From the NCBI GenBank assembly GCA_030681515.1, contig JAUXSE010000052.1:1-64000 (forward strand): a stretch of DNA of 64,000 bases. Direction: 5' to 3'. Position numbers and translations under genes: made by a program. Numbering within the stretch: position 1 is the first letter of the stretch; every line of letters begins with the position of its first letter. Of the stretch, positions 14,554 to 52,621 are shown piece by piece. This stretch comes from Geothrix sp. (lineage in GTDB: Bacteria; Acidobacteriota; Holophagae; Holophagales; Holophagaceae). The notes beneath the pieces were generated by a model that was not told the DNA's origin, did no database searches, and worked only from the letters and a program-made list of their open reading frames with translations.

Positions 14554-15318
14554 ATGCCCCTTCCCGCCCGCTTCCTCGCCCGTCTGCGACGCCTGCCGAT
14601 GCGCCTGCGCGGGCGCCTGGGCGGGGGCACGGAGGGGCTGCATCCGTCCAAGTTCAAGGGGGCGGGGCTCACCTTTGTGGAGAACCGGCCCTACGAACCG
14701 GGCGATGATCCCCGTTTCATCAACTGGCCGCTGACGGCACGCACGGGCGAGCCGATCATGAAACGCTTCGAAAGCAGCCGCGATCTGGTGCTGTGGCTGG
14801 TGGTGGATCCTTCGCCCTCCATGTACCTGGGCGATCCTGTTTCGCCGTTGCGCTGGGCCATGGAGCTCTGCGGCGCGGCCTTCGCCACGCTGCATGCCAC
14901 GGGGGATCGCCTGGGCCTGATCGTCCCCGGGGACAGCCGCACGCCCGCCCTGCGCATCGCGCCCAAGCGTGGGCGCATCCACGGCCTGCGCATCCTCGAA
15001 ACGCTGGCGGAGCGCGGGCCCTCCATCCCCACCCAGGCCGCCTGGCGCGAGGCCCTGGGCCACTGGGGCGAGCACGGGAGGGGGCACCGGCTGTGGCTCT
15101 TCAGCAATGGCGCGGGGCTCCACGGCCTGGCGCCTCTGCTCAAACCCCTGGCCACCCGGCACCGCGTGGTGTGGTTCCAGCCCGAGGCTCCCGCGGAGCG
15201 CCGGGGCATGACCTGGCCCGATCCCGGTTTCTCCGCCGCCATCGAACGGCAGCGATGGGATCTGATGGACGATCCCATCGTGAAGCTCAACGCGTGGCTC
15301 CGGGCGGGGGGGGCATGA
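14554..15318 (+). CDS. DUF58 domain protein of BAT-like operon
   Basis: 254 aa. The DUF58 signature is clear (ENRPYEPGDDPRFINWPLTARTGEPIMKRFE at about 45-75) followed by a degenerate VWA-like fold (LWLVVDPSPSM). Such proteins accompany MoxR ATPases and BatA/BatB VWA proteins, thought to act as an envelope-stress or complex-assembly system. First gene of the operon; overlaps the next by ATGA. No moxR gene is found next to it in the window. Confidence 0.88.
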   Translation: MPLPARFLARLRRLPMRLRGRLGGGTEGLHPSKFKGAGLTFVENRPYEPGDDPRFINWPLTARTGEPIMKRFESSRDLVLWLVVDPSPSMYLGDPVSPLRWAMELCGAAFATLHATGDRLGLIVPGDSRTPALRIAPKRGRIHGLRILETLAERGPSIPTQAAWREALGHWGEHGRGHRLWLFSNGAGLHGLAPLLKPLATRHRVVWFQPEAPAERRGMTWPDPGFSAAIERQRWDLMDDPIVKLNAWLRAGGA

Positions 15319-16145
15319 TCGGCGGGGTGGGTTCCTCCGCTCGTTTGTCCTCGCTCGGATTTCGCGGGCGAAATCCGAGGTATCTAAAGGCCGGAATCCT
15401 GGTGGTGGCAGGGTGCCTGCCGGTCCTGGCGACCCCGGTATGGAAGGCCCCGGCCCAGCTGAAGCTGGGCGAGTTGCAGGTGCTGGAGCTGCGGGAGGAG
15501 GATCCTTCGAAGCCCGCGCCCCCGCGCCCCACGGTGGAGGACCGGCTTGGCCCCCTGCGCCTGCGATCCATGGAGCCGCTGCCGGATGGGCGCGGCTGGC
15601 GCTTCCAGGTGCAGGCCCTGGAACCCGGCTCCGCGGTGATCCCGGCGCTGGATCTCGGCAACGGACAGCGGAGCCCCGAACTGCGGCTGCAGGTGCCGCG
15701 CACCATCCCCTTCGGCGGGCCCTGGGTGGGCTTCGGCGGCGGGAACGATGACCGCCTGCCCGCCATCCCCTTCCCCTGGGCCTGGGCCAGCCTGCTGCTG
15801 CTGCCGCCCCTGGCCCTCCTCGCCTGGGGGATCCATCGCTGGCGGAAGGGCTCCGCCAGCCGACGCCTCCGCCACGCCGCCCACGTCTTCCAGCGCCACT
15901 GGCCCCCGGCAGACCGGAAACGGGAGACCCTGGACGCGGCCCACGGCCTGGGCCGGAACCTGCTGGCCGCGCGCTTCGGGGAGGCCGCCCGGGCCTGGGG
16001 GCCCTCCGATTTCCAGGCCCGCAACCTCGGGCCGTGGGACCAGTGGGTGAAGAGCCTCGATGCCGCCCGCTTCGGCCGCACGGAGCCGCCCTTCCCGCGA
16101 TCCGAGCTTCTGGTGGCCGCGCTCGACGCGAGAGGCAACCCGTGA
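15315..16145 (+). CDS. Membrane protein of BAT-like operon
   Basis: 276 aa, start coupled to the DUF58 gene (ATGA). A hydrophobic N-terminal segment (about 27-42, AGILVVAGCLPVLATP), an exported middle part with beta-rich pattern, a transmembrane helix (WAWASLLLLPPLALLAWGI) and a cytoplasmic tail. Position and topology fit the DUF4381/BatD-like accessory subunit, but the sequence alone does not prove it. A perfect 12-bp palindrome (15354-15379) is inside codons 14-22, ahead of the signal-like segment, and appears to have been inserted into the reading frame. Confidence 0.65.
   Translation: MIGGVGSSARLSSLGFRGRNPRYLKAGILVVAGCLPVLATPVWKAPAQLKLGELQVLELREEDPSKPAPPRPTVEDRLGPLRLRSMEPLPDGRGWRFQVQALEPGSAVIPALDLGNGQRSPELRLQVPRTIPFGGPWVGFGGGNDDRLPAIPFPWAWASLLLLPPLALLAWGIHRWRKGSASRRLRHAAHVFQRHWPPADRKRETLDAAHGLGRNLLAARFGEAARAWGPSDFQARNLGPWDQWVKSLDAARFGRTEPPFPRSELLVAALDARGNP
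15354..15379. repeat. Palindrome inside the 5' end of a coding region
   Basis: CTCGGATTTCGC / GCGAAATCCGAG around GG. It encodes part of SSLGFRGRNPRY in the BAT-operon membrane protein. Similar in style to the intergenic hairpins elsewhere in the window. Confidence 0.6.
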
Positions 16146-17098
16146 TCGCCCTGCGCCATCCCCTGGTGCTGCTGGTGGCGGTACCGCTGCTGATCTGGGC
16201 CTGGCGGGTGATCTACCGCTGGGGCATCCCGTCCTCCCGGCCCTCCAGCGCCCTGGGCCGCCTCACGTCCCATTGGGTCCCGGTGCTGCTCTCCCTGGCC
16301 CTGGGCCTGGCCGCCGCGGGCCCCGAATGGCGCAAGCCCATCCGGGGCGTCGCCCCTGTGGTGGATTTCGCCGTGGTGCTGGACGGCAGCAGCAGCATGA
16401 GGATCCTCGACCGGCCCGACGAGGATCGCTGGCACGCCGCCCGCCGCACGCTCGCCCAGTTCGTGCTGCGGCGCCCGGACGACCGCTTCGCCCTCATCCT
16501 CTTCAGCGCCCATCCCGTGACCCTGAGCCCGCTCACGTCCGACCACATGCGCCTGCTGAGGATGCTGGCGCGGCTGGACCTGGACAGCCGCGACGATGGC
16601 ACCGCCATCGGATCCGCCCTGATGACCGCCGTGCGGCGCCTGGAGGATAGCCCCGCCCGCAGCCGCGTCATCCTGCTCATCACGGACGGCGTGCAGAACC
16701 GCGGCCGCGTGACGCCCATGGAGGCCGCCGAGGAGGCCCAACGCAACGGCATCCGCATCCATGCCGTGGCCCTGGGCAGCGATGGGGAAAGCCTCGTGCC
16801 CCTGGAGGGCGGCGGCTTCGCCCGCCTCCGGGTGGAGGTGGACCACGCCACCCTGGGGCAGGTGGCCCACCTCACGGGCGGCGAAGCCTTCAGCGCCGAG
16901 GATCCCGGCGGCCTGGCCCGCAGCCTCGCCGCGGTGGATCAGTTGGAAACGACCCTGCTGCCCGTGGATCCCCCCACCGAAGGCCGTCCCCTGGCCCGCT
17001 GGTGCCTGCTGGCCGCCCTCGTCCTGGCCCTGCCCCTGGCCGCCGATCTGGCCTTCAAACGCGGGAAGCCCAGGCCTGCTTGGCTCATGGGAAACTAG
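16142..17098 (+). CDS. BatA-like VWA-domain membrane protein
   Basis: 318 aa from GTG overlapping the previous stop. Two N-terminal hydrophobic segments (about 8-20 and 45-60), then a von Willebrand A domain with intact metal-ion site (VLDGSSSM, DXSXS) and a C-terminal transmembrane helix (LLAALVLALPLAADLAF). This is the BatA layout in which the VWA domain lies between membrane anchors. Followed after 3 nt by the restriction-modification gene. Confidence 0.88.
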   Translation: MIALRHPLVLLVAVPLLIWAWRVIYRWGIPSSRPSSALGRLTSHWVPVLLSLALGLAAAGPEWRKPIRGVAPVVDFAVVLDGSSSMRILDRPDEDRWHAARRTLAQFVLRRPDDRFALILFSAHPVTLSPLTSDHMRLLRMLARLDLDSRDDGTAIGSALMTAVRRLEDSPARSRVILLITDGVQNRGRVTPMEAAEEAQRNGIRIHAVALGSDGESLVPLEGGGFARLRVEVDHATLGQVAHLTGGEAFSAEDPGGLARSLAAVDQLETTLLPVDPPTEGRPLARWCLLAALVLALPLAADLAFKRGKPRPAWLMGN

Positions 17099-17101
17099 CT
17101 C

Positions 17102-20100
17102 ATGGCCCTCAATCCCCTCATCGCCCCATCCCGCCTGGATCAGCTGCTGAAGCAGGTCAGCGTGCCCGATGCCCTGCGGGAGGCCGCCCTGGCCTGGGCG
17201 GACCGCCTGGACAACTACCAGGGCGGCGTCATCAAGGAGCAGGCCAACCGCAGCCAATTCCTGAACCTCGTGTTCCACCAGGGCCTGGGCTACCTGCCCA
17301 ACGGATCGGTGTCCGCGGATCAGTCGTACTCCATGCGGGAGGAACACGCCACTGAAACAGACGCCGAGCGCCCCGACGCCTCCCTGGGCCGCTTCGGCGG
17401 GTCCGAGGGGGAGAACGCCACCTACGCCGTGTTCGAGCTGAAGGACGGCGGCACCGATCTGGACAAATCCCCCAAAGGCTCCTACACCAAGAGCCCCGTG
17501 GAACAGGGCTTCGCCTACGCCGACAAGCACGCCCACGCCGAGTTCATCCTCGTGTCGAACTTCCGCGAGATCCGCCTCTATGCCCGGGAGGCCCGGCAGC
17601 TCAAGGCCTGGGTCTTCGAGTTCCACCGCCTCCAGCACGGGGATCGCGAACGGCTGCTCCAGGAGCTGGCCTTCTTCCTGAGCCCCGCCAATCTCATCCC
17701 CGCCCGCCCCGGCCAGCGGCCCCACCTGCTGGAACAGATCCAGGCCGCGCCCCTGGAGCAGGAGCGCATCACCCGCGCCTTCTACCAGGAGTTCAGGGCC
17801 GTGCGCGATGTGGCCCAGGGCCACTACCAGCGCCTGCTGGAGGATCAGAACGATCCCCAGCCCCCCGCCAGGGCCCTGGAGTCCGCCCAGAAACTCCTGA
17901 ACCGAACCCTGTTCGCCGGGTTCGCGCAAAGCCGCCGCCTCCTGCCGGAGGGCCTGCTGGCGGACCTGCTCGAACACACGGGCTACCTCGAAGAAAAGCC
18001 CCTCTACCGCAACCTGAAGCAGCTGTTCCGGGCGCTGGACAAGGGCTTCCGCGCGGAGTTCCGCGGGAAGCACGCCGTCCTGGAAGTCCAGGAATTCAAC
18101 GGGGGACTCTTCCGCAAAGACGACATCGTGGATGGTTCCGGCTTCGCCCTCACTGAGGAGCTGGCCAAGCAGCTGCTCCACCTGGCCGACCGCGACTTCG
18201 TGACCGAGCTGCCCATCAGCGTACTGGGCCACTGCTTCGAATCCAGCCTGGGCGATCTGGACGCCGCCCGGGGCGAACGCCAGGACACGCGCCACAGCGA
18301 CGGCATCTACTACACCCCCGACTGGGTGACCCGCTACATCTGCCGCCACACGCTGAGGCCCCTGGTGGAGCGCTGCACGGCCGAGGCCCATCCATCCACC
18401 CTGAAGGCCCTGGGACCGCGCCCGGAGGATGGCGATGCCGCCGCCCGCTGGGCCCTCCACGCCTTCCATGCCACCTGGAACGCCGTGGCCGATCTGCGCA
18501 TCGTGGATCCCGCCTGCGGCAGCGGCGCATTTCTCGCCATGGGCCTGCGCGTGCTGCGCGAGCTGCTGGAGCCCGCCTACCGCCAGGCCCTGGCGGCGGC
18601 GGCGTCCCTGCCCGATGTGCCCGAGGACACCGTCCACGAGGATCTGCCCGGTTTCCAGATCGTCCAGGACACGCCCCGCAGCCGCGCCATGGCGGGCCTG
18701 AAGGAGCTGCCGCCGCTGGAACGCTGCTTCTACGGCGTGGATCTGCACGCCGAAGCCGCCCTGCTGGCCCAGTTGTCCCTGTGGCTCGAAAGCGCCACGC
18801 CCGGCCGCAAGCTCGCCAACCTGGGCGAGCAGATCCGCGTGGCCAACAGCCTCAGCGCCGACTGGCACCAGTTCTTCCCGGGCGTGGAAGCCTTCGATGC
18901 CGTCATCGGCAACCCGCCCTACGTGCGCATGGAGCTGTTCAAGGACCAGAAGCCGCACCTCAAGGCGGCCTTCCCCGAGGTTCACCAGGAGCGCGCCGAT
19001 CTCTACTGCTACTTCTTCCAGCTCAGCGCCGGGCTGCTGAAACCCGGCGGGCGCTACGGCATCATCGTCAGCAACAAGTGGCTGCGCGCCCAGTACGGCC
19101 AGCCCTCCCGAGCCTTCCTGAAAGCCCGCTTCCAGCTCGACCGCCTGCTGGATTTCGGCGAACTACCCGTCTTCGAGGATGCCGCCGTGATGCCCCACAT
19201 CCTGCTGGCGACGCGGGCGGATGGAGGCACGGACAAACCCATTCGCTTCGCCCAGATTCCACGTCTGCCCCAAAGTGACACCGACCTTGAAAGCCTGGAC
19301 GCGACCCACGGCCACGCCGTACCCACCGCCCAGCTCAGCGACGAGGGCTGGCTGCTGGTGAACGAAGCGCAGGGCGCAGCCTTCTCTGCCCGGAAGCTCA
19401 AGGGCATCACCCTTCGTGAATACCTGGGCGAGACCCCCATCTGCTGGGGCATCAAGACCGGCTTCAATGAAGCCTTCTGGCTGAGCCAGGCCCAGCGCGA
19501 CGCCCTGGTGGCGAAGAATCCCGAATCGGTCCAGATCCTCAAGCCCCTGGTCATCGGCGACGAGGTGCGCCGCTGGGCCCTGCGCCAGGATGAGCCCCGG
19601 TTCCTCATCTACACGCCGAAAAACCGGTTCACCGAAACTGAATTCCAGGATCGCTTCCCCGCCGTGGCCAAGCACCTGAAACCCTTCCGCAGCTTCGAGA
19701 AGAACGGCAAGACCATCGGCCTGGATCACCGCGCCACCCAGCAGGCCTGGTTCGAGCTACAGCAGGCGCAGGAGGCTTACGAAAGCCACTTCACAGATGA
19801 GAAGATCCTGTGGCCTGAGATCGCGATGGAACCACGTTGGATGATGGAGACAAAGGGGGCAGAGGCCTTCCCCAACAACAAGTGCTTTTTCATCCCGGAC
19901 AAGGATCTCCATCTGCTCGGCGTCCTGAACGCCTCCTCCACCTGGCGCCACCTGAGTGAAATCGCATCATCGCTGGGCGCGCCCTCCGATGGTGGGCGCC
20001 TCGAATTGCGCGAACATACCGTCGAAAAGCTTTTCATACCGCAACCTTCGCAGAAGGTTGCGCAGCTCACGGAACGCCTCCTGGAACACGCCGCCACCAC

Positions 20101-20389
20101 GGAAGCCCATCGCCGAACCTTCCTCCGCTTCCTGCGCCAGGACGCGCCCTGGCAGCTCGGCACCTCGGGCGAGAAACTGGAGACCTTCTGGGAGCTGGAC
20201 GAAACCACGGCGCTGGCGGAGGCCCTGAAGCGGCGGAACAAGAAGCTGAAGGAGCCCACCCTGGGCGACCGCGACTTCCTGAAGCGCGCCTGGCGCGAGG
20301 CCCGCGAACCCATCCTGGAATTGCGCGGCCAGATCGCCGCCCTCGAAACCGAACTGGATGCCGCCGTGGACGCGGCCTGGGAGGCCTAG
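17102..20389 (+). CDS. Type IIG restriction-modification enzyme (nuclease-methyltransferase fusion)
   Basis: 1095 aa. The N-terminal part has a PD-(D/E)XK-like nuclease pattern (D92 ... E112-L-K114 in VFELKDGGTD, then EQGFAYADKHAHAEFILVSN). A helical linker leads to an N6-adenine methyltransferase with SAM motif I DPACGSGAFL (about 470) and catalytic NPPY (about 604, VIGNPPYVRME). The C-terminal third resembles target-recognition and coiled-coil parts of Eco57I/BREX-PglX-like enzymes. One polypeptide would cut and modify DNA. Base composition matches its neighbours. It sits tightly between two VWA genes of the BAT operon (3-nt gaps on both sides), so it is likely cotranscribed with them. A 9-bp hairpin with GCA loop lies in the coding region at 20041-20061. 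Confidence 0.88.
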   Translation: MALNPLIAPSRLDQLLKQVSVPDALREAALAWADRLDNYQGGVIKEQANRSQFLNLVFHQGLGYLPNGSVSADQSYSMREEHATETDAERPDASLGRFGGSEGENATYAVFELKDGGTDLDKSPKGSYTKSPVEQGFAYADKHAHAEFILVSNFREIRLYAREARQLKAWVFEFHRLQHGDRERLLQELAFFLSPANLIPARPGQRPHLLEQIQAAPLEQERITRAFYQEFRAVRDVAQGHYQRLLEDQNDPQPPARALESAQKLLNRTLFAGFAQSRRLLPEGLLADLLEHTGYLEEKPLYRNLKQLFRALDKGFRAEFRGKHAVLEVQEFNGGLFRKDDIVDGSGFALTEELAKQLLHLADRDFVTELPISVLGHCFESSLGDLDAARGERQDTRHSDGIYYTPDWVTRYICRHTLRPLVERCTAEAHPSTLKALGPRPEDGDAAARWALHAFHATWNAVADLRIVDPACGSGAFLAMGLRVLRELLEPAYRQALAAAASLPDVPEDTVHEDLPGFQIVQDTPRSRAMAGLKELPPLERCFYGVDLHAEAALLAQLSLWLESATPGRKLANLGEQIRVANSLSADWHQFFPGVEAFDAVIGNPPYVRMELFKDQKPHLKAAFPEVHQERADLYCYFFQLSAGLLKPGGRYGIIVSNKWLRAQYGQPSRAFLKARFQLDRLLDFGELPVFEDAAVMPHILLATRADGGTDKPIRFAQIPRLPQSDTDLESLDATHGHAVPTAQLSDEGWLLVNEAQGAAFSARKLKGITLREYLGETPICWGIKTGFNEAFWLSQAQRDALVAKNPESVQILKPLVIGDEVRRWALRQDEPRFLIYTPKNRFTETEFQDRFPAVAKHLKPFRSFEKNGKTIGLDHRATQQAWFELQQAQEAYESHFTDEKILWPEIAMEPRWMMETKGAEAFPNNKCFFIPDKDLHLLGVLNASSTWRHLSEIASSLGAPSDGGRLELREHTVEKLFIPQPSQKVAQLTERLLEHAATTEAHRRTFLRFLRQDAPWQLGTSGEKLETFWELDETTALAEALKRRNKKLKEPTLGDRDFLKRAWREAREPILELRGQIAALETELDAAVDAAWEA
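20041..20061. repeat. Intragenic hairpin with GCA triloop
   Basis: GCAACCTTC / GAAGGTTGC with loop GCA inside the type IIG gene (encodes PQPSQKVAQ). A member of the TTC/TGC-triloop hairpin class, complementary orientation. Confidence 0.55.
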
Positions 20390-20392
20390 GCC

Positions 20393-21904
20393 ATGCCCCT
20401 CCCCTTCTCCCACCCCTGGCTGCTGGCGCCCTTCGGCGTGGCGGCCCTGCTGATCCTTGGGCTGGCCCTGCGGGCGCATCTGCGTCCCGGTCTGGGGGTG
20501 CAGGTGGTGGGGCAGCGTCCGCTTTGGCAGGGGCTGGGGCTGGCGCTGATGGCCGCGGGCCTCGGCCTCGGGCTGGCGGAACCCCGCTGGGGCCTGCCGG
20601 AGTTCCCGCGGCTCACGGTGCATGTGGTGCTGGATGCCAGCCGCTCCATGACGGTACTTGATGCCGGCGGACGCACCCGCTGGGAGGCCGCCGTGGCGGC
20701 CCTGGATCGCATCTGGTCCCAGCCCCAGCCAGGCCTGCGCTGGGGCCTGGATCTGCTCACGGGGGACACCCTCCCCGTGCAGCCGCCGGGCGAGGACCGG
20801 ACCCTGCTGCGGGAATCCCTGCGGGCGGTGGTGCCGGGTGAGGTGGGTTCCCCGGGCACCAGCCTGGGCCGGGGCTTGCCGCAGGTGGCGGCCCAGGCGG
20901 ACCGGGACGCCCCCGCCGTGATCCTCCTGCTCAGCGATGGGGAGGAGACCTGGGAGGCGCCCGAGGAGGCCCTGAACCGCGCGGTGGCGCAGCTCAAGCA
21001 GGCCCGGATCCCCGTCTGCGTGTTGGCCTTCGGCGACGGCCAGCCCCACGCGGTGCCGCCCCGGGCGGGATCCGGTCCCGCGGCGCCGACGCCCGAACCT
21101 GCCGTCAGCACGGCCCATCCGGAGTTCCTCGCCCGCCTCGCCCAGGCCACCGGCGGCCAAGTCTTCAAGGACGGCGAGGCCGCCGCCGCGGGACTCCAGG
21201 CCCTGGCCGCCGGAAAGCTGCCCCTGCCCGCCCGGCGCTCCCTTCAGCCCGCCCATCCCGAAGTGGGGGCCTGGCTGGCCCTGGCGGGGCTGACCCTGTG
21301 GCTCGTTTTCGCCGGAAAACCCCTGGCGCGCTGGCGGCCCGTGCTGATCCTGCTGCTGGCCTTCGCCCCGACCCTCCGCGCCGGGGAAGGCACCCGCTGG
21401 GCCCCGGCCAGTGTGAAAGCCTGGCTGGCCCAGCGGGCCATTGATGGGGGGGATCTGCCCGGCGCCCGGCGATGGCGCCCCGCCGACGCCAGGCCCGCTC
21501 ATCGGCTGCTGGCCGCCCAGATTGACCTGCGAACGGGCTTTCCCGAGGAGGCCCTGAAGGCGCTGGCGCCCCTGGTGGGCCAGGGCGCCCCGAGGCCCCT
21601 CCCGCCCTGGCGCACCCCGGCCCTGCTGCTGGCCGCCCGCGCCCACCTGGAATCCAACCGTCCCGAGGAGGCCCGCACCCTGCTGGAGCGCCTCCTGCTG
21701 GAGCAGCCCGGGCAGCGGGAGGCCGTCCACGATCTTCAGACCCTCGTGAAGGACGCCGCTCCGCCCCCGCCACCGGATCCGAAGAAGCCACCGCCCCCTC
21801 CCCCGCCCCGCCCCAGCCTGGGCGCCCAACAGGACGAAATGGAGGGCCTCAAACAGCGCCTGCCCAAGCCGCCGAAGACGGCGGGCGGGGTGAAGGATCT
21901 CTGA
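20393..21904 (+). CDS. BatB-like VWA protein with TPR and proline-rich tail
   Basis: 503 aa. N-terminal hydrophobic segments (12-27, 44-62), a VWA domain with DASRSM metal site and GDGEE-like LLSDGEETW, and two membrane helices (about 285-305 and 318-330). A helical TPR-like part (about 370-455) and a Pro-rich tail (PPPPPDPKKPPPPPPPRP) follow. This combines BatB (VWA) and BatC (TPR) features in one protein. It resumes the BAT operon after the restriction gene, starting 3 nt beyond its stop. Confidence 0.85.
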   Translation: MPLPFSHPWLLAPFGVAALLILGLALRAHLRPGLGVQVVGQRPLWQGLGLALMAAGLGLGLAEPRWGLPEFPRLTVHVVLDASRSMTVLDAGGRTRWEAAVAALDRIWSQPQPGLRWGLDLLTGDTLPVQPPGEDRTLLRESLRAVVPGEVGSPGTSLGRGLPQVAAQADRDAPAVILLLSDGEETWEAPEEALNRAVAQLKQARIPVCVLAFGDGQPHAVPPRAGSGPAAPTPEPAVSTAHPEFLARLAQATGGQVFKDGEAAAAGLQALAAGKLPLPARRSLQPAHPEVGAWLALAGLTLWLVFAGKPLARWRPVLILLLAFAPTLRAGEGTRWAPASVKAWLAQRAIDGGDLPGARRWRPADARPAHRLLAAQIDLRTGFPEEALKALAPLVGQGAPRPLPPWRTPALLLAARAHLESNRPEEARTLLERLLLEQPGQREAVHDLQTLVKDAAPPPPPDPKKPPPPPPPRPSLGAQQDEMEGLKQRLPKPPKTAGGVKDL

Positions 21905-21993: not shown

Positions 21994-22413
21994 CTATTTT
22001 GCGTTCAGCCAGGCCGCGAACTGGGCGCCGGTATTGAAGGCCCCCACCTGGCGGCGGATCTCCTTGCCGTTGGCATCCAGGATCACCATGGTGGGGAAGG
22101 CATTCAGCTTGAACTGCTCGGCGAGCCTGGTGCCTTCCGCCACGGGAGTGCCATCGCGCTTCTGCACCAGGGAGGAGAATGGCACCACCTTGGCCAGAGC
22201 CGCCTGGGCTTCGGCGGTGGGGAAGACATTCTTCTGGAGGTGCAGGCAGGGGCCGCACCACTCAGTCCAGAGATCCATGAAGATGACTTTCTTCTCGGCC
22301 TTGGCGCGCTTGAGGGCGGACTGGTAGTCGTGCTCCCACCTGGTCGGGCCCTGGGCGGATAGCGAAACGGCCAGGGGCGCGGCGACAAGGAGGAGGGCGG
22401 CGAGGGACTTCAT
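21994..22413 (-). CDS. Exported thioredoxin-fold protein
   Basis: 139 aa from ATG (MKSLAALLLVAAPLAVSLSA signal peptide). Thioredoxin active site WCGPC with C53 and C56, then KVVPFSSLVQKRDG and the cis-Pro region (NAFPTMVILD). Pattern fits the DsbD-gamma/thioredoxin-7-like exported reductases. Likely works on periplasmic disulfides, perhaps for cytochrome c maturation (inference). Monocistronic and converges with the BAT operon. Confidence 0.88.
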   Translation of the reverse strand: MKSLAALLLVAAPLAVSLSAQGPTRWEHDYQSALKRAKAEKKVIFMDLWTEWCGPCLHLQKNVFPTAEAQAALAKVVPFSSLVQKRDGTPVAEGTRLAEQFKLNAFPTMVILDANGKEIRRQVGAFNTGAQFAAWLNAK

Positions 22414-22578
22414 GCTGGGGCTCCAGAGGGTGGCGGCGGGGCCGCACGGGGTTGGATGGAGGCAGACCGGATTTCGTTCCAGGTTCCAGGATACCCGGGC
22501 TAATCCCAGGGGTCCGCGCCCCGTAATCCCATGCAACTCGGCGAGTGCCGAACCCCAATCCTTTCAAGGAGGCCGCCC

Positions 22579-47051: not shown

Positions 47052-48032
47052 ATGGAACAGACCCTGTCCCTCGAATTCCTGCGGGTGGTGGAACAGGCCG
47101 CCATCGCCTGCGCCACCTCCATCGGCCATGGCCGCCGCAAGCACAGCGACAAGCTGGCGGTGGAGGCCATGCGGAAATCCATGGAAACCGTCCGCATGGA
47201 CGGCACCATCGTCATCGGTGAAGGCGAGCGGGACGAGGCCCCCATGCTCTACATCGGAGAGAAAGTAGGCATGGGGCCCGACCTGGATGGCGACCACCCG
47301 GAGGTGGACATCGCCGTGGATCCGCTGGAAGGGACCAACCTCTGCGCCACGGGGGCTCCCAACGCCATCGCCGTGCTGGCGGCCACCGAAAAGGGCGGCC
47401 TGCTGCACGCGCCGGATCTCTACATGGAGAAGCTGGTGGTGGGCCCCGCGGCCAAGGGCAAGGTGAACCTCGATGCGCCGGTCCACGAAACGCTTCAGAT
47501 CATCGCGAAGTCCCTGGACCGGCAGGTGTCCGAAATCACCGTCACCGTGCTTGATCGCGAACGACACGCCCAGCTCATCGCGGATATCCGGAAGGCCGGC
47601 GCCCGCATCCAGCTCATCGGCGATGGCGACCTCAGCGCCGCCATCAGCGCCGCCGTCAGCGGCACGGGCATCCACGCGGTCATGGGCACCGGCGGGGCGC
47701 CCGAGGGCGTGCTGTCCGCCGCGGCCCTGAAGTGCCTCAACGGCGAGATCCAGGGGCGCCTGAAGGTGGACACCAACACCGCCAGCCGGGAGAAGGCCGA
47801 GGCCATGGGCGTGGATTTCGGGCGCATCTACTTCACGGAGGACCTGTGCCCCGGCAAGGAGATCGTCTTCGCCGCCTGCGGCGTCACCGACGGAAACCTG
47901 CTCCAGGGCGTGCGCCACTTCGGGCACGGCGTGCGCACCTCCAGCCTCATCCTCACCTACGGCAGCCGCCAGGTGCGCTTCATTGACACCGTCCACATCA
48001 AGGAAGGTGAGACCGTCACCGTGCGGTTCTAG
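47052..48032 (+). CDS. glpX: Fructose-1,6-bisphosphatase class II
   Basis: 326 aa. Gluconeogenic removal of the 1-phosphate. GlpX motifs: [29 protein letters not shown], the metal site [11 protein letters not shown], and [18 protein letters not shown]. Follows cutA after 34 nt. Together with malic enzyme it points to gluconeogenic growth on organic or amino acids (inference). Confidence 0.96.
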
Positions 48033-48037
48033 CCACC

Positions 48038-48499
48038 TTGCGCGAATCGTTCCGCACCCGCCTCATGCGCTGGGGCTTCAACCTGTGGCCCTGCTATCGG
48101 GGCACGGGCGCCCGCGTCACCTTCATCGCCGGCGACTGGCGGGAGGTCCGGGTCAAACTGCCCCTCTCCTGGCGCACCCGCAACTATGTGGGCACGATCT
48201 TCGGCGGCAGCCTCTACGCGGCGGTGGATCCCTTCTACATGATCATGCTCATGAAGAACCTGGGACCCGATGCGGTGGTGTGGGACAAGGCCGCCTCCAT
48301 CCGCTTCCGGAAGCCCGGCCGCGGCACCCTCACCGCCTCCTTCCTGCTGGACGAGGCCGAGCTGGTCGAGATCCGGCGGCTGCTCCTGGAACAGCCCAAG
48401 GTGGACCGCAGCTACACGGTCCAGCTGGTGGACCGGGAGGGCGTGGTTCATGCGGAAGTGGAGAAAGTGATCCACATATCCCTTCGCCGATCTTCCTGA
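48038..48499 (+). CDS. Second DUF4442 hotdog-fold protein
   Basis: 153 aa if it starts at TTG 48038; ATG at 48065 (MRWGFNLWPCY) is the alternative, and neither has a clear ribosome site. LPLSWRTRNYVGTIFGGSLYAAVDPFYMIMLMKNLG is the DUF4442 core and is similar to the 41435 gene. Probable thioesterase-like protein. Begins 6 nt after glpX. Confidence 0.78.
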   Translation: MRESFRTRLMRWGFNLWPCYRGTGARVTFIAGDWREVRVKLPLSWRTRNYVGTIFGGSLYAAVDPFYMIMLMKNLGPDAVVWDKAASIRFRKPGRGTLTASFLLDEAELVEIRRLLLEQPKVDRSYTVQLVDREGVVHAEVEKVIHISLRRSS

Positions 48500-48531
48500 T
48501 AATCTTTTACCCTCATCTTACGAGGTTATTC

Positions 48532-50562
48532 ATGACGTCCCCGTTCCGCGCCGCCCTCTGCCTCTGCCTGGGCCTGGGCCTCGCGTCCTTCTCCCTGACC
48601 GCGGAGTCCAAGCCGGGCTTCGATCCCGCCAACCTCGACACCGCCGTGAAGCCCTGCGACGACTTCTACGCCTTCGCCAACGGGGGCTGGCTCAAGTCCC
48701 ACAGCCTGCCCGCGGACAAGGCCCGCTTCGGCGCCTTCGAGGAAGTCAGCGAGCGCAACCGCGCCATCCTGAAACAGATCCTGGAGGAGACCAGCGCCAG
48801 GACCACCTGGGTGCCGGGCACTGTCCAGCAGAAGGTGGGCGACTTCTACGCCTCCGGCATGGACGAGGCCGCCATCAATAAGCGCGGTCTCGCGCCGCTG
48901 AAGCCCGCCCTGGCCACCATCGAGGGACTGAAGGACGCGAAGCAGCTCCCCGGCCTGCTGGCCAGGCTCCACGCCCAGGGCCTGCCCGGCGGCTTCGGCT
49001 TCTTCGTCGGCCAGGACATGAAGGACACCACCCGCTACATGGGCAGCCTCATGCAAGGGGGGACCGGGCTCCCCGACCGGGACTACTACCTGAAGGACGA
49101 CGCCCGCAGCCGCGATATCCGCGCCAAGTACGAGGCCCACATCGCCAGGATGCTGGAACTGGCTGGCGACCCACCCGGCCTGGCCCGGGTCCGCGCCAAG
49201 GTGGTGCTGGATGTGGAGACCCGCCTGGCCCAGGCCCAGTGGACCCGCGTGGAGATGCGGAACCCCCAGAAGCGGTACAACAAGCGCACCCTCGATCAGA
49301 TGGTGAACGAGGCCCCGGGCTTCGACTGGAAGGGCTACTTCGCTGCCCGCGGCCTGAAGCTGGCGGACCTCAACCTCGCCCAGCCCTCCTTCTTCCAGGC
49401 CTTCGGGAAGCTGGCCGCCGAAGTGCCCGCCCCCCAGTGGCGGACCTACCTCCGCTGGCACACCCTCAACGCCACCGCCAACCTGCTGCCCAAGGCGTTC
49501 GGGGAGGAGAGTTTCGCCTTCCAGGGCAAGGTGCTGAACGGGACCCCGGAGCGCGAACCCCGGGCCAAGCGCATCGAGGCCGCCACGGACAACACCCTCG
49601 GCGAGGCCCTGGGTCAGCTCTACGTGAAGGCCACCTTCCCGCCCGAGTCCAAGCAGCGGGTGCTCGCCATGGTGGAGAACCTCCGCGTGGCCCTGCGGGA
49701 GCGCATCACGAACCTGGACTGGATGGGCGCCGATACCAAGCAGCAGGCCATCAAGAAGCTGAACGCCTTCGGCGTGAAGATCGGCTATCCCGACAAGTGG
49801 AAGACCTACGCCTTCGACGTCCGGCGCGACGACTACTTCGGCAATGTGCGCCGGGCCGCGGCCTTCCGCATCCAGGAAAACCTCGCCAAGCTCGGCAAGC
49901 CCATTGACCGCACGGAATGGGGCATGACGCCGCCCACCGTGAACGCCTACTACAGCCCCACCATGAACGAGATCGTGTTCCCCGCGGGCATCCTGCAGCC
50001 GCCCTTCTTCGACCCCAAGGCCGATGACGCGATGAACTACGGATCCCTGGGCTTCGTCATCGGACACGAGATGACCCACGGCTTCGACGACAGCGGCAGC
50101 CAGTTCGACGCCGAGGGCAACCTCAAGAACTGGTGGACCGACGCGGACAAGAAGGCCTACGCCTCCCGCACCGATCTGGTGGTGAAGCAGTACGAGGCCT
50201 ACGAACCCCTCAAGGGCGAACACGTGAATGGCAAGCTCACCCTCGGCGAGAACATCGCCGATATCGGCGGCCTCAAGATCGCCTTCGCCGCCTACCAGAA
50301 CAGCCTGAAGGGCAAGGCCATCCCCGCCTCCGTGGACGGCTTCACCGGCCCCCAGCGCTTCTTCCTGGGCGCCGCCGCCGTGTGGCGCAACCACATCCGC
50401 GAGGCGGCCCTGTCCGTGCGCCTCAAGACCGATCCCCACAGCCCCGGCCGCGAGCGCGTGAATGGCCCCCTGTCCAACCTGCCGGAGTTCTACGAGGCCT
50501 TCGGCTGCGCCGATGGCCAGGCCATGAAGCGGGATGTCCAGGTACGGCCGGCCATCTGGTGA
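48532..50562 (+). CDS. Exported M13-family metallopeptidase, copy 1
   Basis: 676 aa with signal peptide (1-24). Neprilysin-like zinc peptidase: HEMTHGFDDSGSQFD gives HEXXH (about H512), ENIADIGGLKIA the downstream Glu ligand, and NAYYSPTMNEIVFPAGILQP the substrate-binding NAYY. Cleaves oligopeptides outside the cytoplasm. Followed by a hairpin and a paralogue. Confidence 0.95.
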   Translation: MTSPFRAALCLCLGLGLASFSLTAESKPGFDPANLDTAVKPCDDFYAFANGGWLKSHSLPADKARFGAFEEVSERNRAILKQILEETSARTTWVPGTVQQKVGDFYASGMDEAAINKRGLAPLKPALATIEGLKDAKQLPGLLARLHAQGLPGGFGFFVGQDMKDTTRYMGSLMQGGTGLPDRDYYLKDDARSRDIRAKYEAHIARMLELAGDPPGLARVRAKVVLDVETRLAQAQWTRVEMRNPQKRYNKRTLDQMVNEAPGFDWKGYFAARGLKLADLNLAQPSFFQAFGKLAAEVPAPQWRTYLRWHTLNATANLLPKAFGEESFAFQGKVLNGTPEREPRAKRIEAATDNTLGEALGQLYVKATFPPESKQRVLAMVENLRVALRERITNLDWMGADTKQQAIKKLNAFGVKIGYPDKWKTYAFDVRRDDYFGNVRRAAAFRIQENLAKLGKPIDRTEWGMTPPTVNAYYSPTMNEIVFPAGILQPPFFDPKADDAMNYGSLGFVIGHEMTHGFDDSGSQFDAEGNLKNWWTDADKKAYASRTDLVVKQYEAYEPLKGEHVNGKLTLGENIADIGGLKIAFAAYQNSLKGKAIPASVDGFTGPQRFFLGAAAVWRNHIREAALSVRLKTDPHSPGRERVNGPLSNLPEFYEAFGCADGQAMKRDVQVRPAIW

Positions 50563-50568
50563 TCCCTG

Positions 50569-50593
50569 CTCCGGAATGCTTCGCATTCCGGAG
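50569..50593 (+). terminator. TTC-triloop hairpin after M13 copy 1
   Basis: CTCCGGAATGC / GCATTCCGGAG with loop TTC. A nearly identical hairpin follows M13 copy 2, with TGC loop. No T-run, so it may protect the 3' end or pause transcription. Confidence 0.55.
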
Positions 50594-50596
50594 TGA

Positions 50597-52621
50597 ATGA
50601 AAGGAAATGAGTTGAAAACGCGAACAGTCCTGCTCGTCCTGGCCTTGATGGTGCCGCTCATCGCAGAACCCCCGGCGCGGCCAGTCCTTGGCGTGGACCG
50701 GGGCTACATCAACACCGCGGCCTCCCCCTGCCGGGACTTCTATTGCTACGCCAACGGTACCTTCGATAAGGTGGCCATTCCCGGCGAGTACGCCTCCTAT
50801 GGCGTCAACCAGGAAATAGACGAGCGCAATTTCACGATCCTGAAGGGCATTCTCGAGTCCTCCGCCCGCACCAGCGGATCGAAGGGCACCATCGCCCAGC
50901 GCGTGGGGGACTTCTACGCCTCCGGCCTGGACGAGGCGCTCATCGAGAAGGAAGGCCTCCAGCCCCTCGCGCCCCTGTTCGCGGCCATCCAGGCCGTGAA
51001 GACACCCGCGGATCTCCTGGCCGGACTGGGCCGACTCCACGCCCTCGGCATCCCGGCAGGCTTCGGCTTCGGCGTGCAGGTGGACGACAAGGACAGCTCG
51101 GCCATGATCGCGAGTTTCAGCCAGGGTGGCCTCGGCCTGCCCGAGCGCGACTACTACCTGCGCCCCGGCCAGGAGGCCGAAACCACTCGCCAGGCCTATG
51201 AGCAGCATGTGGCGCGGATCTTCACGCTGGCGGGCGAGGACGCCGAGGCGGCCCGGGCCGGGGCCCGGACGGTCATGCTCCTGGAAACGAAGCTGGCCCA
51301 GGCCTCGCGCACCCTGGTGGACCTGCGGGATCCCCAGGCGAATTACCACAAGGTGGCCCGGAAGGATCTCGCGGCCCTGGCCCCCCTGGACTGGAATGCC
51401 TACTTCTCCGCCGTGGCCCTTCCCGCCGGCGAAGCCCATGTGCTGGTGGGCCAGCCGGAGTTCTACAAGGCCCTGGGCGGGCTGCTCGGTTCGGAGCCCA
51501 TGGACGCCTGGCGCCTCTACCTCCGATGGCATGTCCTGCGGGCCGCCGCGCCCTTCCTCGGCTCCGCCTTCGTGAACGAGAACTTCGCCTTCTACGCGAA
51601 GACCCTTTCCGGAGCCACGGAACTGCGGCCCCGCTGGAAGCGCGTCCTCGCCGCCGCGGACCGCGCCCTGGGCGAAGACCTCGGCCAGCTCTTCGTGAAG
51701 ACCGCCTTCAGCCCCGCCGCCAAGGCCCGCGCCCTGGAGATGGTCCACTTCCACAAGGAGGCCATGCGCGCGCGCATCCTGGCCGCCGACTGGATGGTGG
51801 ACGCCACCAAGACCCAGGCCCTGAAAAAGCTCGACACCATGCGCAGCAAGGTGGGTTATCCCGACCGCTGGCGCGACTACAGCGGCCTCCAGGTCGCCCG
51901 CCGGCCCTATGTCCTCAATGTGCAGGCCGCAGCCACCTTCGAGTTCCGGCGCCGCCTGGCCAAGCTCGGCAGGCCCGTGGATCGCGATGAATGGTTCATG
52001 ACGCCCCAGACCAACAACGCCTACTACGACCCCAGCCTGAACGAGATGTGCTTCCCCGCGGGCATCCTCCAGCCCCCCTTCTTCGACGCGAAGGCCGACG
52101 ATGCCTCCAACTACGGCGCCCTGGCCTCCACCATCGGCCACGAACTGACCCACGGCTTCGACGACCAGGGCCGGCAGTACGACTGGCAGGGCAACCTGAA
52201 GGACTGGTGGACCGCCGAGGACGCCAGGCGCTTCGAGGCCCGCGCCCACCAGATCGTGAAGCAGTACGACGCCTTCGAGGTGCTGCCGGGCCTGCCCATC
52301 AACGGCAAGCTCACCCTCGGAGAGAACATCGCCGACATCGGCGGGCTGCGCGTCTCCTACGAAGCCTTCAGGCTGGCCACCAAGGGCAGGGATCCCAAGG
52401 CCGTGGATGGCTTCACGCCGGACCAGCGGTTCTTCCTCGCCTTCGCCCAGGGCTGGCGCACCAACCAGCGCCCCGAGGCCCTCCGCATGCAGGTCACCAC
52501 CGATGTCCATGCCCCCGTGCGCTGGCGCGTCCTCGGGCCAGTGGCCGATTTTCCCGAATTCAGGAAAGCCTTCGGCTGCGAAGCCGCTCCCGCCGGGCAG
52601 GCGCCCACGGCCATCTGGTAG
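50597..52621 (+). CDS. Exported M13-family metallopeptidase, copy 2
   Basis: 674 aa if started at ATG 50597; a TTG at 50612 with AAAGGAAATGAG before it is a better-spaced start. Signal-peptide-like segment (RTVLLVLALMVPLIA). HELTHGFDDQGRQYD (about H515), ENIADIGGLRVS, and NAYYDPSLNEMCFPAGILQP. Moderately similar to copy 1 through its whole length, so a tandem duplication that has diverged. Confidence 0.94.
   Translation: MKGNELKTRTVLLVLALMVPLIAEPPARPVLGVDRGYINTAASPCRDFYCYANGTFDKVAIPGEYASYGVNQEIDERNFTILKGILESSARTSGSKGTIAQRVGDFYASGLDEALIEKEGLQPLAPLFAAIQAVKTPADLLAGLGRLHALGIPAGFGFGVQVDDKDSSAMIASFSQGGLGLPERDYYLRPGQEAETTRQAYEQHVARIFTLAGEDAEAARAGARTVMLLETKLAQASRTLVDLRDPQANYHKVARKDLAALAPLDWNAYFSAVALPAGEAHVLVGQPEFYKALGGLLGSEPMDAWRLYLRWHVLRAAAPFLGSAFVNENFAFYAKTLSGATELRPRWKRVLAAADRALGEDLGQLFVKTAFSPAAKARALEMVHFHKEAMRARILAADWMVDATKTQALKKLDTMRSKVGYPDRWRDYSGLQVARRPYVLNVQAAATFEFRRRLAKLGRPVDRDEWFMTPQTNNAYYDPSLNEMCFPAGILQPPFFDAKADDASNYGALASTIGHELTHGFDDQGRQYDWQGNLKDWWTAEDARRFEARAHQIVKQYDAFEVLPGLPINGKLTLGENIADIGGLRVSYEAFRLATKGRDPKAVDGFTPDQRFFLAFAQGWRTNQRPEALRMQVTTDVHAPVRWRVLGPVADFPEFRKAFGCEAAPAGQAPTAIW

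Follow-up and report, generated by a model that had tools for sequence, protein, structure and literature searches.

A type IIG restriction-methyltransferase gene at one junction of the BAT operon in Geothrix and its relatives

Why should a gene for a restriction enzyme lie between two genes of a BAT operon? The question arises from a 64,000-nucleotide stretch of Geothrix sp. DNA (the window), for which a sequence-only reading had offered two answers: a precise insertion that kept the operon spacing, or a working link between DNA modification and a MoxR/VWA machinery. Here, we examine the gene, its operon and the corresponding loci in related genomes, which are denoted by G-numbers (with G000 for the present genome) and L-numbers for their individual loci. 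We found no description of such a restriction-enzyme-in-BAT arrangement in the open-access literature.

The enzyme and its operon

The gene, P0001 (RM in the following), is an intact open reading frame on the + strand (17102–20389), which starts with ATG and encodes 1095 amino acids. It matches the Pfam families Eco57I (3e-31), MmeI_Mtase (2e-12) and MmeI_hel, the helical spacer (6e-7), and its best PADLOC model is REase_MTase_IIG (9e-68). Reading frame, Pfam and PADLOC thus agree with the original description of a type IIG nuclease-methyltransferase encoded between BatA-like and BatB/C-like genes and on their strand. Both motifs of the gamma-type N6-adenine methyltransferases are present, motif I as PACGSG (aa 470–475; 18509–18526) and motif IV, within the Eco57I match, as NPPY (aa 604–607; 18911–18922). 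Close to the N-terminus, the residues D92, E112 and K114 (17375–17443) are invariant columns in the alignment of RM homologs and probably form a PD-(D/E)XK-type nuclease motif, D92 ... E112-x-K114. In a low-confidence AlphaFold model (8 alignment rows, pLDDT 48.6), from which the N-terminal strand order alone was used, E112 falls on a predicted strand (106–113) and D92 just ahead of another (93–99). Such a placement at predicted strands resembles that in PD-(D/E)XK nucleases and weakly supports the assignment. Judged by its sequence, P0001 therefore combines a methyltransferase and a putative nuclease, the latter assigned by its motif, in one polypeptide.

The target-recognition region probably comprises approximately residues 700–1000 (19199–20101). 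A weak match to MmeI_TRD lies within it (aa 781–957, E 9.5e-4, below the cut-off), and homology to the BseCI methylase runs to residue 935; the pLDDT of the AlphaFold model is too low in this region to add to these matches. In this probable specificity region, GC3 dips to 0.74–0.85. It is also the main reason why RM has a lower overall GC content (0.667) than the BAT genes (0.71–0.755), so that the composition initially read as equal to that of the neighbors is so in GC3 (0.873, against 0.865–0.915 in the neighboring genes), but not overall. The pN/pS values of 0.18–0.41 indicate purifying selection. Opposite BatA and RM, the − strand holds a 1232-aa open frame (15287–18985), which is probably a by-product of the high GC content rather than a gene.

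The surrounding operon starts with a gene for a DUF58 protein (14554–15318, +; Pfam DUF58, 8.7e-23). Its stop is overlapped by the start of a gene at the position of BatD (276 aa; 15315–16145, +), which matches DUF4381 below the cut-off (E 0.01) and whose place is conserved throughout the family. The following BatA-like VWA protein (16142–17098, +; Pfam VWA_2, 5.5e-18) has a probable GTG start, assigned from its overlap with the preceding stop and from the relatives. At the left junction (17096–17104, +), the BatA stop TAG (17096–17098) is separated by CTC from the RM start ATG at 17102; at the right junction (20387–20395, +), the RM stop TAG (20387–20389) is separated by GCC from the ATG at 20393. 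The gaps are thus exactly 3 nt on either side, just as first read. A GGGAGG upstream of this second ATG could be a ribosome site for the last BAT gene, BatBC, which encodes a BatB/C-like VWA-TPR protein (20393–21904, +; Pfam VWA_2, 2.2e-7; TPR_19, 2.7e-7). A convergent thioredoxin-like gene (21994–22536, −; Pfam Thioredoxin_2, 1.3e-9) closes the region. Further downstream in the window, two genes for M13-family peptidases lie in tandem (47983–52621).

The DUF58, BatA and BatB/C VWA genes follow each other in the order of a BAT operon. The MoxR part of the proposed machinery is missing from the locus, with no moxR gene in or beside the operon; the two moxR genes of the genome are found on other contigs (C66 and C46). 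On the + strand, neither of the RM junctions showed a terminator-like or promoter-like site; for promoters, the sigma-70 consensus scan is weak evidence in a region of such high GC content (63–74%).

Occupancy of the BatA–BatBC junction

BatA was found in 83 of 100 relatives. Where the BatA–BatBC junction of Holophagaceae relatives lies on a single contig, it carries no insert in 55 of 60 cases, and the two genes are then mostly coupled by an ATGA, in which the BatA stop overlaps the BatBC start. RM itself, at more than 60% identity, is present in four genomes, the present one among them; a fifth, G060, holds a fragment of it at the end of a contig. In all five carriers (G000, G018, G016, G056 and G060), which belong to three genera, it directly follows BatA. 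The identities to P0001 are 81% in G018, 86% in G016, 67% in G056 from another genus, and 66% over 44 aa in G060 from a third. Contig ends split the loci of G016, G056 and G060, whose right side was read from a second contig. RM occupies the slot in ~8%, or about one in twelve, of the relatives. The gene order in relatives, which had been suggested as a check, hence gives a divided picture: the same gene follows BatA in five genomes, while most relatives have contiguous, coupled BAT genes. In G016, RM is ~70% identical over the last ~160 aa, compared with 86% at the N-terminus, and nearly identical at the extreme C-terminus (L056 4840–5325), possibly by a swap of the specificity region.

Outside this slot, no RM copy of more than 60% identity was found in the family, and none of more than 38% among 77 genomes of the family and 396 of the phylum. 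Likewise, gene-sized inserts are present at 8 of 63 BatA–BatBC junctions, including the three split loci, and at none of 118 instances of two other internal junctions (Fisher p 1.6e-4, a value that serves only as a guide because related genomes are not independent). By direct tblastn, distant type IIG homologs with 27–32% identity were observed elsewhere in the phylum, at L014 and L011 (G084), L012 (G028), and L010, L015 and L016 (G057); in the short flanks of these six loci, no Bat, X or Y gene (see below) was detected. Carriage by viruses was rejected: a pattern scan of IMG/VR candidates yielded no relative, and the phage matches amount to four distant ones (25–31%).

The slot also accommodates other genes. 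In G016 and G018, RM is followed by a pair of NTP-transferase and HEPN genes (MNT-HEPN) and then by a protein that we refer to as X; the three together lie at L056 2586–4843 and L054 12843–15097, respectively. The pair combines NTP_transf_2/Polbeta with HEPN, and its match to an antitoxin model lies below the cut-off. In G018, it has a lower GC3 (0.73–0.75) than RM and X, a hint that it may have come in later than these. X is a helical protein of 472–475 aa that belongs to no assigned family and stands alone in the slot of G028; its AlphaFold model, computed from a single sequence, has a pLDDT of 42. In genus g3, the slot is filled by a 258-aa protein, Y, with ATGA overlaps on both sides (G048 and G058; L101 6861–7649 and L102 2170–2946). 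A family scan for Y, with these two genomes as positive controls, returned a single additional match, a fragment adjoining BatBC in G056 (E 0.009). Neither X nor Y has a match in Pfam or NCBIfam, and our searches found neither outside the slot. Alignment with hhalign (E 4.6e-5 with a probability of 69%, and E 1.1e-3 with 21%) suggests, but no more than suggests, that X may be a duplicated Y. X and Y appear to represent an undescribed protein family that is found only in this slot.

Lastly, the slot of G109 contains about 460 nt resembling a short intergenic repeat sequence. Repeat-like stretches that translate to NTDGHRW/TDEHR lie just upstream of BatBC in G109 and G060 (L115 2074–2510; L114 2100–2548). 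The gap between DUF4139 and DUF58 ahead of the operon is also variable among relatives: G018 has a 427-aa gene with a GGEEF motif there (L054 5684–6967), and G028 a 593-aa gene that has matches at the DNA level in G037 and in members of other genera (L086 11305–13086).

Old retention or repeated gain

In a tree of the flanking proteins, built with FastTree, the occupied genomes are scattered tips with sisters that lack RM, namely G042 for G000, G027 for G018 and G107 for G056; the X-bearing G028 likewise has a sister without RM, G019. Fitch parsimony explains this distribution by 5 gains, or by 1 gain and 19 losses. Both the empty sisters and the parsimony count favor a history in which the cassette was inserted repeatedly between BatA and BatBC, in several recent gains, either by a mechanism that prefers this site or by homologous recombination through these two genes. 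So does the BatA tail WIEGH (ATTGAAGGACACTA), which is restricted to two occupied genomes, G016 with RM in first place and G028 with X in first place, as if one cassette had been trimmed differently in the two. This is a real possibility, if clearly the less probable one; it concerns the history alone, and the enzyme would work in the same way.

Several observations argue against such recent gains. Inspection of the cassettes read revealed no integrase, mobility gene or terminal repeats. Moreover, at synonymous and nonsynonymous sites alike, RM is as divergent as the sequences that flank it, and its four-taxon topology agrees with theirs, with one alternative topology not rejected; the cassette therefore looks old and patchily kept. 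Finally, between G018 and the empty G027, the flanks retain an identity of ~93% right up to the slot, with no imported recombination tract beside it. We therefore consider long residence of the cassette, with patchy retention and occasional replacement by an empty allele, more likely than repeated recent arrival. Such a cassette would change hands or be lost at the precise junction. The notion of a precise insertion thus survives as that of a recurrent or old accessory slot, but not as a single event, given its presence in five genomes of three genera.

Self-contained enzyme or BAT partner

As for its function, we consider it likely that P0001 is a self-sufficient type IIG system, which occupies a fixed accessory slot and rides on BAT expression. 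A single chain would provide the N-terminal D-ExK nuclease, the helical spacer, the N6-adenine methyltransferase and the C-terminal specificity part. Its most likely activities are the cleavage of incoming DNA that lacks methylation, and the methylation of its own target sites in the DNA of the host. RM would depend on the BAT message for its expression, with its translation following directly on that of BatA and no control gene of its own. Since one fixed junction is occupied in about one twelfth of the relatives and exactly closed in most, the most plausible reading of RM is that of an optional defence gene seated in the operon. The slot would accordingly be optional too, holding RM alone, as here, RM with MNT-HEPN and X, X alone, Y alone, or nothing. 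As a class, type IIG enzymes function without a partner, which supports the independence of RM from the Bat proteins.

What speaks against the operon as a mere seat is that the RM subfamily (>60% identity) as well as X and Y are exclusive to this slot, which must then be put down to shared ancestry. Without this exclusive location, there would be no case left for a functional link. In such a link, RM and the BAT proteins would form a working unit, in which the VWA proteins, with the distant MoxR, assemble, gate or localize the nuclease, and X or Y acts as an adaptor. The presence of RM in the BAT slot of all five carriers and the lack of close copies elsewhere in family and phylum are in line with this proposal. 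The divergence and quartet topology that RM shares with its flanks fit a long co-residence and therefore leave room for a functional tie. In addition, VWA and MoxR proteins occur in some conflict systems, according to two reports (PMC7159879, PMC11090510). However, most relatives have a coupled BAT operon without RM, the moxR genes are elsewhere in the genome, and enzymes of this type are partner-free. Furthermore, distant RM homologs (25–38% identity) are found in other contexts that lack Bat genes, one example being a Paracoccus plasmid. Those of Rhodobacterales, some plasmid-borne (e.g. on pFER2 of Paracoccus ferrooxidans) and some chromosomal, resemble P0001 in full-length alignment (31–33% identity over 94–98% of the protein), but have no Bat genes near the copies examined. 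We therefore regard a working unit as improbable, and the link proposed by the sequence-only reading keeps a circumstantial basis in the co-location of RM and BAT, without the MoxR that it invoked. An extended version appears slightly less probable still: RM, the helical X or Y and the BAT VWA proteins would constitute a conditional defence module, in which the nuclease is gated or positioned by a VWA complex associated with the envelope, with the junction as its seat since before the genera diverged.

A one-off chance insertion in this genome, devoid of wider meaning, would suit the lack of RM in its nearest relatives, G042 and G023, but is rejected as very improbable, because four other genomes, from three genera, have the same gene at this very junction. 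Of the signs that had been named for chance, contiguous BAT genes and a separate promoter of the enzyme, most relatives show the former, while the sigma-70 scan did not find the latter. Equally improbable is a methyltransferase left over from a degraded BREX or DISARM system, as PADLOC DrmMI (1e-37) and weak NCBIfam PglX matches might suggest. PglX scores reach 37–50 bits against cut-offs of 400–900, DrmMI is weaker than the type IIG match, P0001 has a nuclease motif of its own at the N-terminus, and no PglZ/BrxC or other BREX or DISARM genes were found among the neighbors scanned; we rejected this origin on scores and neighbors. A weak, coiled-coil-type match to DruC among the proteins scanned does not belong to DISARM.

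By its sequence features, P0001 is an ordinary member of the Eco57I/MmeI-like type IIG enzymes, sharing their D-ExK motif, helical spacer, N6-adenine methyltransferase with PACGSG and NPPY, and probably their C-terminal specificity part in one polypeptide; it differs in residing, with 3-nt gaps, inside a core cellular operon. This operon, in turn, resembles the BAT (Bacteroides aerotolerance) operon in its succession of DUF58, BatA VWA and BatB/C-type VWA-TPR genes, but has no adjacent moxR and a foreign gene at one junction. A BatB-BatC fusion is known from Leptospira biflexa (PMC3557215). The MNT-HEPN (type VII) toxin-antitoxin systems have their counterpart in the pair that follows RM in G016 and G018, which is absent from this window.

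The slot as a whole is reminiscent of the defence hotspots of E. coli, whose median occupancy is 8% (PMC10121019). As in these, the flanks are constant, the cargo is variable and the position mostly empty, with about 8% occupancy for RM; no integrase-type gene of a mobile element was seen among the slot ORFs read. Unlike these hotspots, the slot lies inside a translationally coupled operon, holds cassettes of 1–4 genes and spans genera. With a restriction enzyme at one exact junction of such a core operon, in empty, partial and full versions over three genera, it offers a compact natural series for studying how defence genes exploit host operons to be expressed, and whether VWA/MoxR systems work together with such genes.
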